Source of the DNA: Nitrosopumilus zosterae
GTDB lineage: Archaea > Thermoproteota > Nitrososphaeria > Nitrososphaerales > Nitrosopumilaceae
Reading direction: 5' to 3'
DNA length: 64,000 nucleotides
NCBI RefSeq assembly: GCF_025998175.1
Contig: NZ_AP026695.1
Location: 496,001 to 560,000 of the forward strand
Each line of letters opens with the position of its first letter. Within the stretch, counting starts at the first letter, position 1. Both the position numbers and the translations under genes were made by a program. Under the pieces are notes generated by a model. That model was not told where the DNA came from, made no database searches, and saw nothing but the letters and a program-made list of their open reading frames with translations. Shown here piece after piece: positions 4,051 to 18,814 of the stretch.

Positions 4051-4160
4051 ACTGTATAATGTGTGAATCGCGATGATATGTTCAATTCAACAAATATTGT
4101 GATAATTAAGCTAGACTTGATACTTTTGTTAATAATTGATTGTTGCTTACTGTATGTATT

Positions 4161-16862: not shown

Positions 16863-17426
16863 TTAGTTTACCATCATGTGTCTATCGAGTATTTCGGTAC
16901 GTTGTTCCTGTTCATTGATTATGTTTAATGTCATACTGGATTCAATGTCATGTAATGCACGTATGGCTTTAGTAATGACATTTTCAAGTGTTTTGTTATC
17001 TGATGCTTGAATCTTACAAATTACATCATATAATCCAAAAACCACATCAGCTTCTTTTACCTCTGGAATGTGGCAGATGTTTTTCAGGATGGTGTACTCT
17101 TCTCCGTTCTTACAGTGAATTACAACATATGCTTGAGCTATATTTTGTCCCAATATTGCTCCCAGTAATTTTTCAGAAGTTTGAAACAATCCTTCAGATT
17201 CGGAACGTGTTAAAGTCAAAGTGGAATGAATTTTGGGCATTTTCCGAATAATACCTGTAACGACCTCTCGAATTTTCTTTTCTGATCCTAGTTCAATTTT
17301 TGCAACAATATCATAAAGGCCAAGTGTGCCATGAGCTTCTTTTATGCCCTCGATATTTTTCAGTGAGGAAATGACATCTATTTCTGAGCCCAAATCACAA
17401 TTCATTAAGATATATGCTTTAGCCAT
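16863..17426 (-). CDS. tandem Lrp/AsnC ligand-binding (RAM) domain protein
   Basis: 187 residues made of two RAM domains without any DNA-binding domain. Repeat 1 (about 1-80) has AYILMNCDLGSE and GLYDIVAKIELG; repeat 2 (about 98-180) has AYVVIHCKNGEE and GLYDVICKIQAS. RAM domains form dimers/octamers and bind amino acids or similar effectors. The gene starts 2 nt after the stop of the C2H2 finger gene (17429-17599), so both belong to one transcript. Confidence 0.85.
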   Translation of the reverse strand: MAKAYILMNCDLGSEIDVISSLKNIEGIKEAHGTLGLYDIVAKIELGSEKKIREVVTGIIRKMPKIHSTLTLTRSESEGLFQTSEKLLGAILGQNIAQAYVVIHCKNGEEYTILKNICHIPEVKEADVVFGLYDVICKIQASDNKTLENVITKAIRALHDIESSMTLNIINEQEQRTEILDRHMMVN

Positions 17427-17428
17427 AT

Positions 17429-17599
17429 TCAGTGATCTTTTGCACGTTTGGGTTTTGAATGAGCCTTTATCATGTGTTTTTTAGTCCTTTCTGGATCAGT
17501 GAACTCCATATCACAGATCTTACATTTGTTGGAAAATGTGGTTTCTCTTTTTAGTATGCTTTTTACCAAATTTTTGTTAAAGGATAATTTTGGTTTCAT
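17429..17599 (-). CDS. C2H2 zinc-finger microprotein (56 residues)
   Basis: Contains CKICDMEFTDPERTKKHMIKAH, split as C-x2-C-x12-H-x4-H, a classical C2H2 finger, flanked by Lys-rich segments (NLVKSILKRE; SKPKRAKDH). The high positive charge suggests DNA or RNA binding. A TTAACATTGTTAA palindrome lies 35 nt upstream of the ATG. Downstream is the tandem RAM protein in the same operon. The same finger spacing occurs in the protein at 18096-18245. Confidence 0.7.
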   Translation of the reverse strand: MKPKLSFNKNLVKSILKRETTFSNKCKICDMEFTDPERTKKHMIKAHSKPKRAKDH

Positions 17600-17634
17600 G
17601 CAAAAACTTGAAATTTGAGATTATAACGTGTTAC

Positions 17635-17647
17635 TTAACATTGTTAA
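17635..17647. promoter_or_regulatory. palindromic operator TTAACATTGTTAA, site 1
   Basis: A perfect odd palindrome (6-bp arms around one base) 35 nt upstream of the C2H2 gene on the minus strand. It is identical, allowing for strand, to sites 2 and 3. The position just upstream of a presumed TATA box fits activator or repressor binding. Confidence 0.6.
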
Positions 17648-17704
17648 TTCAATTCCTATGATGGATGTATTGATATTTCCCTGCTGAACTACCATCAATC
17701 CTTC

Positions 17705-17794
17705 TTAATGTTCTAATTGATCAGAACACTCTGTGGAGCAAACATCATCACACCAATGTTCAAATTCTTTTCCACACACAATACATGTTTTCAA
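17705..17794 (-). CDS. zinc-ribbon microprotein (29 residues, TTG start)
   Basis: Read from TTG 17794: LKTCIVCGKEF, then eight residues, then CSTECSDQ. The CxxCGxEF ... CSxxC pattern matches the plus-strand microprotein at 4161-4256. A TTAACAATGTTAA palindrome lies 49 nt upstream. No ATG is available because the frame is closed shortly upstream by TGA. Function unknown. Confidence 0.45.
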   Translation of the reverse strand: MKTCIVCGKEFEHWCDDVCSTECSDQLEH

Positions 17795-17843
17795 TAGGAC
17801 AATCTCACATCATTGTTTCCCGATTCAAGTATTTACAGAATAA

Positions 17844-17856
17844 TTAACAATGTTAA
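17844..17856. promoter_or_regulatory. palindromic operator TTAACAATGTTAA, site 2
   Basis: Exact copy of the 13-bp palindrome, 49 nt upstream of the TTG start of the zinc-ribbon microprotein at 17794 (minus strand), and 37 nt from the large inverted-repeat element at 17894. Confidence 0.6.
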
Positions 17857-17893
17857 GTGAATGATAAATACGCAAATACTGTTAATCTATTTG

Positions 17894-18000
17894 TGTAGAA
17901 GTCCCTATCGTAAAATGATGTGATTCCAAGTTAAAACCCGTGCTGTACTGCTACTCAATTTCTGCTTGAGACATACTAAAACATCATTTTGACTTCTACA
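17894..18000. repeat. 107-nt inverted-repeat element, possible structured RNA
   Basis: Left arm TGTAGAAGTC (17894-17903), 8 nt, AAAATGATGT (17912-17921); right arm ACATCATTTT (17981-17990) directly followed by GACTTCTACA (17991-18000). Both 10-bp pairs are perfect, so a 20-bp stem with an 8-nt one-sided bulge and a 59-nt terminal loop can form. It lies in a gene-free 301-nt stretch (17795-18095) within the zinc-finger cluster. A small RNA or a MITE-like relic are the main options; no target duplication is obvious. Confidence 0.55.
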
Positions 18001-18095
18001 TTTTAACCATTCATGTGAAATACATATTCAGTAATTTCTCTGATGTTTTATGTTGAAAACCATGAATTCTATGAAATGGAATTTTTAAATAATAA

Positions 18096-18245
18096 CTAGT
18101 TTCTAAATGTCCATTTTGATTCGTCATGCTTTTTTGCGAATTCGTCGGATGATACCTTATTGTGACTATTTTTGATGTGAAACATGTATACTTCCACTGG
18201 CCCAAATCTGTGTTTGCATAGAAGGCAAATTTTTCTAAACGACAT
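18096..18245 (-). CDS. C2H2 zinc-finger microprotein (49 residues)
   Basis: Starts MSFRKICLLCKHRFG and has HIKNSH, giving C-x2-C-x12-H-x4-H, exactly the spacing of the finger at 17429-17599. The C-terminus is charged (DEFAKKHDESKWTFR). Diverges from the cupredoxin gene at 18326, with a single TTAACAATGTTAA palindrome between them, 32 nt from this start. Likely nucleic-acid or protein binding. Confidence 0.65.
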   Translation of the reverse strand: MSFRKICLLCKHRFGPVEVYMFHIKNSHNKVSSDEFAKKHDESKWTFRN

Positions 18246-18277
18246 AAACTAATTCATTATTTCCTTTTAGTGGTTCC

Positions 18278-18290
18278 TTAACAATGTTAA
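18278..18290. promoter_or_regulatory. palindromic operator TTAACAATGTTAA, site 3, shared by divergent genes
   Basis: Exact copy of the 13-bp palindrome between the C2H2 gene (32 nt, minus strand) and the cupredoxin gene (35 nt, plus strand). On the plus side it is followed directly by ATTATTGTATTTATG, a possible TATA region, so a bound protein could control both genes. Confidence 0.65.
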
Positions 18291-18325
18291 TTATTGTATT
18301 TATGCAAGAAAATTATTTCTAAACA

Positions 18326-18814
18326 TTGAACAAGACAAAGAAAAAATTCTCCAAACTATCTAAAACAAACATAATTTCAGTTAGTGTCGTTGCGGGTGTT
18401 GTTATTTTGATAGGGGGAATTGCATTGAATTCGCTTAGTCCGGTCAATTACGATGGTTTTGTTTTTGCTCCTTCTACAAACGTATTCCTAAAGGCAGTAA
18501 AATCTCCTCAAGGCATCTACCATTACCAACTCACCAAAGGCGGTAAAGCACTCCAATCCTCCTCTGAGACGTCGCCTTCAATTATTATGTCCAAAGGAAA
18601 TCTTGTTCAGATTCACTTGATTAATGAGGAAAAGAACCAGCTTGACAATCCTTCCAAACACAATCTCAATATCGATGAGTTTAATGTACATATCAAAGAT
18701 CTTAGTTATTTTCAAAGTGAATCAGTCACATTTTTGGCAGATAAAACAGGTACTTTTGATTACTATTGCTCAATTCATCCTGGTATGAAAGGCACTATCA
18801 CAATTACTGAATAA
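18326..18814 (+). CDS. membrane-anchored cupredoxin (plastocyanin-like)
   Basis: 162 residues from TTG 18326: basic N-terminus, one TM/signal anchor (about 17-36), then a single cupredoxin domain on the outside. Type 1 copper ligands are a His in KHNLNIDEF (or the nearby VHIKD) and the C-terminal YYCSIHPGMKG loop (Cys, His, Met). Likely an electron carrier to or from multicopper oxidases or terminal oxidase. The palindrome upstream links it to the zinc-finger genes. Confidence 0.85.
   Translation: MNKTKKKFSKLSKTNIISVSVVAGVVILIGGIALNSLSPVNYDGFVFAPSTNVFLKAVKSPQGIYHYQLTKGGKALQSSSETSPSIIMSKGNLVQIHLINEEKNQLDNPSKHNLNIDEFNVHIKDLSYFQSESVTFLADKTGTFDYYCSIHPGMKGTITITE

Follow-up and report, generated by a model that had tools for sequence, protein, structure and literature searches.

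The window, by which we mean the whole 64-kb stretch of DNA analysed here (G000:C1:496001-560000, from a genome of one 1.775-Mb contig), contains an inverted-repeat element at 17894-18000, set among genes for small zinc proteins and copies of a palindrome. On the - strand lies ZF1 (17429-17599), a small C2H2 zinc-finger protein whose zf-C2H2 match (E 4.5e-4) falls below the cut-off, with the palindrome TTAACATTGTTAA (17635-17647) upstream of it. It is joined on that strand by ZF2 (17705-17794), a 29-aa treble-clef-like zinc protein with a TTG start, which is conserved in relatives; its orthologue at L071:3762-3851 matches DUF2116 with E 0.0013, again below the cut-off. ZF2 was too short for the list of open reading frames; in other genomes it ranks with the better conserved portions of the locus.

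ZF2 diverges from the element across a second palindrome, TTAACAATGTTAA (17844-17856, no strand), which lies 37 nt before the foot of the element's stem and is the site 2 beside which the first-pass annotation had placed it. A TATA box, TAAATA (17865-17870, +), begins 29 nt before the stem foot, and TTTT (18001-18004, +), directly after the 3' arm, is a possible, weak transcript end. ZF3 (18096-18245, -), convergent with the element, is a small zinc-finger-like protein that has similar proteins in related loci and no Pfam match at E 0.1. Another copy of TTAACAATGTTAA (18278-18290) stands between ZF3 and the gene for a cupredoxin-like protein (18326-18814, +; Cupredoxin_1 E 8.8e-6, 26.1 bits against a cut-off of 27).

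Geometry and relatives of the element

The arms of the element form two nested stems. Closing stem P1 pairs TGTAGAAGTC (17894-17903) with GACTTCTACA (17991-18000), and second stem P2 pairs AAAATGATGT (17912-17921) with ACATCATTTT (17981-17990), leaving an 8-nt bulge on the 5' side (17904-17911) and a 59-nt loop (17922-17980), at the positions first described. These are the only nested perfect 10-bp arm pairs in the 64 kb, against 0.025 expected per simulated sequence (arm scan with a span of at most 150; null of 40 first-order Markov sequences). Folded as RNA, 17894-18000 reached -25.9 kcal/mol (z -4.85), and none of 200 shuffles was as low. The earlier observation that no coding frame covers the element held for open reading frames of at least 40 aa.

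Inverted-repeat ends are also what a miniature inverted-repeat transposon, dead or living, would show, and a MITE-like relic had been the alternative offered by the first-pass annotation. We give this reading almost no credence. A search for further genomic copies, using the DNA of 17800-18100, returned one place in the element's own genome, with no near-identical second copy; the element occupies the same, orthologous position in related genomes, with the same neighbours in other species; no duplicated target site was seen next to it; and its distance from the promoter is nearly constant.

Searching 95 genomes of the genus with the 891-nt locus, we recovered it from G096 at 92% identity and, in a less similar form, from G065, whereas the 131-nt element alone, run against 61 genomes, gave only short, chance-like matches besides itself. 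Both orthologues sit at the same place, with their arms kept and their loops diverged. Three changes mark the G096 stem, each from A to G, and each turns a pair into G.U on the + strand and into a mismatch on the - strand; in G065, the inner stem has changed on both sides from G-C to A-U, and the loop is rewritten. Across this form of the element, termed type a, the letters of the closing stem are kept and the loop keeps little. The neighbour across the type a palindrome is an EMC3 gene in L071, L075 and L070, and ZF2 in the window, L078 and L062. Since the palindrome is kept while this neighbour changes, type a behaves as its own unit.

A distant relative in the same genome, missed by the DNA search, was found through the shared stem at G000:C1:414504-414618. 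This second form, type b, has the closing stem TGCAGAAGCA...TGCTTCTGCA and is preceded, at an unchanged distance, by the same palindrome, and the genome most likely carries two related RNA copies, one of each predicted type. Types a and b occur in one continuous locus in G065, G066 and G007 and in two loci in G000 and G096. Type b keeps CUACUCCAA in its 5' internal loop, with UUUUCAUUUACUGCC and AGACAC further on in most sequences. Kinship between the types is carried by stem and promoter, given that a model of type b sequences only scores the window element low (23.8 bits, E 0.052, against 28 bits for the antisense strand of type b). Similarity of the loops is uneven, being reached by 0 of 200 shuffles for the type a loop of G065, 10 of 200 for that of G000 and 57 of 200 for that of G096.

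Our alignment comprises 35 sequences, 6 of type a and 29 of type b. Searches outside the genus contributed 11 new loci, 7 of which went into alignment A7; G249, G292 and two of the three G323 loci were left out. L124-L128, L130, L134, L135, L138 and L139, which repeat sequences already included, are likewise absent from A7.

Covariation, strand and promoter

Across the 35 sequences, 96.7% of the cells of the 12-bp P1 are paired. Cells changed on both sides number 16, compared with 3.4 in shuffles; none of 500 shuffles reached this value, and slid controls gave at most 1. Four pairs are changed on both sides, a count that is not unusual (47 of 500 shuffles) and that may represent few events, as three of the four differ between types a and b; nor is the number of pair types in the 35-sequence alignment unusual (188 of 500 shuffles). 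Within the six type a sequences alone, P2 has three pairs changed on both sides (32 of 500 shuffles for pair number), and the whole type a structure holds 7 both-side-changed cells, a value that 0 of 500 shuffles reached and slid controls, at no more than 1, did not approach. Pairing between the loop ends was attained by 0 of 200 shuffle sets in type b and 4 of 200 in type a, where it is carried by G000, G096 and G065; P2 is energetically weak in the form of type a found in G007, G066 and G094. Compensatory changes, a check that the first-pass annotation had proposed, are thus present both between types a and b and within type a, and they show that base pairs have been kept by such change, as would befit an independent structured RNA gene.

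Strong conservation of the arm letters would also suit a site that acts as DNA and is never RNA, its arms being protein-binding sites or the halves of a cruciform. We consider this very unlikely: compensatory changes and an excess of G.U on one strand are expected of RNA, not of DNA.

That excess also bears on orientation. G.U cells outnumber A.C cells by 16 to 4 in P1 and by 6 to 0 in type-a P2, which points to an RNA on the window's + strand. Fold energy lends the + strand no support, the - strand being lower in 22 of 35 sequences and about equal for the window element (-28.6 against -27.8 kcal/mol). This balance, together with the ZF3 stop 95 nt before the hairpin on the - strand, would fit a reading in which the ZF3 mRNA ends in, or is terminated by, the hairpin and the hairpin is not a separate gene. 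Such an origin is improbable. Besides the 16-to-4 ratio, the - strand fold of G096 is weaker than that of G000 by 6 kcal/mol while the + strand fold is not weaker; the palindrome is kept with the RNA where ZF3 is not adjacent (L071, L070); and type b adjoins other genes.

The placement of the promoter is a further regularity. Every one of the 35 sequences has a palindrome, TTAACAWTGTTAA, whose end lies 34-38 nt ahead of the stem (exact in 29, with one mismatch in 6); 5 of the sequences came from a pattern that required the palindrome and 30 were selected without it. A TATA box begins 26-30 nt before the stem in all 35, mostly at 29, and reads TAAATA or, once, TATATA. With both signals at near-constant distances, as would be expected of an independent structured RNA gene, transcription should start at the stem foot. 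The usual spacing between TATA box and start in archaeal promoters underlies start-site prediction, and this geometry places the predicted start at or a few nt from 17894. RNA polymerase would begin at the stem foot, yielding a transcript that closes on itself, its very first nucleotides included, and the transcript would end close to the T-rich stretch that follows the 3' arm; among type b sequences 17 of 29, and among type a sequences 4 of 6, have four or more consecutive T in the 14 nt beyond the stem.

A hairpin followed by T, as in many type-b copies, is likewise the mark of an intrinsic terminator, but the RNA differs by its 59-nt loop, the promoter at the hairpin foot and the covariation of both stems, and a terminator was set aside as unsupported. 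The initial preference for a folded RNA over a terminator is backed by the compensatory changes, the one-strand G.U excess and the promoter at a fixed distance. Taking arms, fold, covariation and strand together, 17894-18000 most likely encodes a structured RNA of ~107-115 nt on the + strand. We put the probability of the whole explanation, a + strand structured RNA gene within a palindrome-controlled regulon, at about 0.83.

Type b may also be translated, since it starts with AUG and its short frame is open longer than chance. Frame 0 from the 5' AUG has 801 open codons across the 29 type b sequences, a total that none of 200 shuffles attained (516 codons in shuffles), although these sequences are related and the shuffles ignore kinship; frames 1 and 2 are chance-like (63 of 200 and 112 of 200 shuffles). 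Taken further, these counts could mean that the family consists of very short leaderless mRNAs, with type b peptides beginning MQKQ or MQRQ and type a as a decayed form. We find this hard to accept, as most compared pairs have no third-codon-position preference among their changes, a conserved nucleotide motif occurs in all three frames, the stem covaries, and type a meets an immediate stop, reading GUG-UAG in the window and in G096 and AUG-UAG otherwise. The type-b frame read from the stem-foot AUG, for example at L068:5504-5599 (+), bears no sign of a conserved peptide.

Comparison with known RNA families returned no assignment. Rfam 15 gave 7 matches in window 17400-18400 and 2 in L068 5440-5660, all far below gathering; at gathering, L071, L131 and L062 yielded one tRNA only, elsewhere. 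Rfam families were rejected, as their gathering score was never reached over the RNA, and a tRNA or tmRNA was rejected by ARAGORN. Archaeal box C/D guide RNAs resemble the element in size and in having a closed terminal stem, but the Rfam C/D match over the window RNA is on the - strand and far below cut-off, and a box C/D sRNA was discarded for want of a CTGA D box in 17894-18000.

Distribution of the RNA and a putative palindrome regulon

The exact palindrome occurs nine times in the genome: four times at the type-b locus, three times at the window locus, and once each at 1296034 and 618869, the last within an apparent coding gene. Across the loci compared, it precedes ZF1 with the winged-helix gene, a short W-rich protein, a zinc ribbon, DUF1059, the RNAs, ZF2, ZF3 and the cupredoxin. 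Its position in the window, between ZF2 and the RNA and again between ZF3 and the cupredoxin gene, indicates that it can serve divergent pairs. The copy at G000:C1:1296034-1296046 (L089) stands before a zinc-ribbon gene that by eye resembles the one at the type-b locus, and this gene is a possible regulon member. At the type-b locus itself, L068:5882-6538 (+) encodes an EMC3/TMCO1-like membrane protein after DUF1059, behind a palindrome.

We detected the RNA at E < 1e-5 in 16 of 95 genus genomes (23 loci, 21 of them being sequences used to build the model itself); six genomes with matches to model R1 at E 0.0018-0.1, and antisense matches, were excluded from these counts. Carriers include N. 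salaria BD31, with RNA sequences identical to those of G065, and several Nitrosarchaeum assemblies. In a 300-genome sample of the order, the RNA was found at E ≤ 1e-3 in 22 genomes from 3 of 64 genera, all in one family; searches of more than 40 genomes used strict filters, with weak matches lost. Viral contigs gave no match to the promoter-plus-arm pattern. One of 16 stretches with the pattern lies in AEVK01000320, from a gammaproteobacterium, and was dismissed as chance, having no 3' arm within 170 nt.

Every one of the 16 RNA-carrying genomes of the genus has two or more exact palindromes, as do only 3 of the 79 others. An orthologue of the winged-helix protein (E ≤ 9e-47) is present in 15 of the 16 carriers and in none of the 79, with more distant paralogues elsewhere; the remaining carrier is G094, where the locus is close to a contig end. 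This co-occurrence fits the winged-helix protein as regulator, and a locus inherited as a block would give the same pattern. The candidate regulator is probably the winged-helix protein of the sister locus (G000:C1:413287-413616), which would bind the palindromes and place under joint control type a, type b and the genes for small zinc-finger proteins, DUF1059 and cupredoxin, together forming a single regulon.

Possible mode of action

None of the 13 gene starts examined in the two loci paired with either RNA within the best 5% of random stretches; the strongest pairing, that of the zinc-ribbon gene with type b, fell in the best 8%. Action through pairing with an mRNA is a possibility that we regard as somewhat doubtful. 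A protein partner is favoured, as the stem is the conserved part of type a and these gene starts show no unusual pairing, and we tentatively propose, from sequence comparison, that the RNA may act by binding a protein via its conserved stem, most likely a small zinc-finger protein of the same regulon. Their shared regulon would make the zinc-finger proteins the nearest candidate partners. A more elaborate scheme, rather unlikely in its entirety, has one palindromic operator driving tiny zinc-finger proteins and two or three kinds of hairpin RNA that close on themselves; RNAs and proteins would form a complex acting in feedback on the regulon, with its cupredoxin, DUF1059 and EMC3-like insertase, and type b would serve in addition as a leaderless mRNA that, through being translated, opens or closes its fold.

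Archaea have small RNAs encoded within regulons, for example Methanosarcina sRNA154. The present RNA resembles that kind in being short and structured, in having a separate promoter and in sharing a control site with the genes of a regulon, and differs in having the closing stem as its conserved part, in belonging to another lineage, in being predicted from sequence and in lacking unusual pairing to the 13 gene starts of the two loci.

Ammonia-oxidizing archaea are among the commonest marine cells, and little appears to be known of their regulatory RNA. The published literature searched, which included few subscription papers, gave no account of this RNA or of the palindrome. Start sites of Thaumarchaeota have been mapped in the Red Sea (PMC5069720), and the consulted portion of that article contains nothing on the present RNA. 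For the RNA family described here, we predict start, strand, fold and operator, and we name a candidate regulator and carrier genomes. Its predicted start and named carriers open it to confirmation by one set of primary transcripts, and the signal to which it responds could emerge from shifts in metal, redox or nitrogen.

A third hairpin of ~60 nt (GGCGAGAAC...GTTYTCGCT) lies at ~4110-4170 of L071 and is read away from the palindrome at 4062-4074. It stands ~35 nt from that palindrome, on the side opposite the type a RNA and with a TATA-like box of its own, and is also found in G007 and G094 (alignment A8). In the window, the divergent partner across the palindrome is ZF2 instead.
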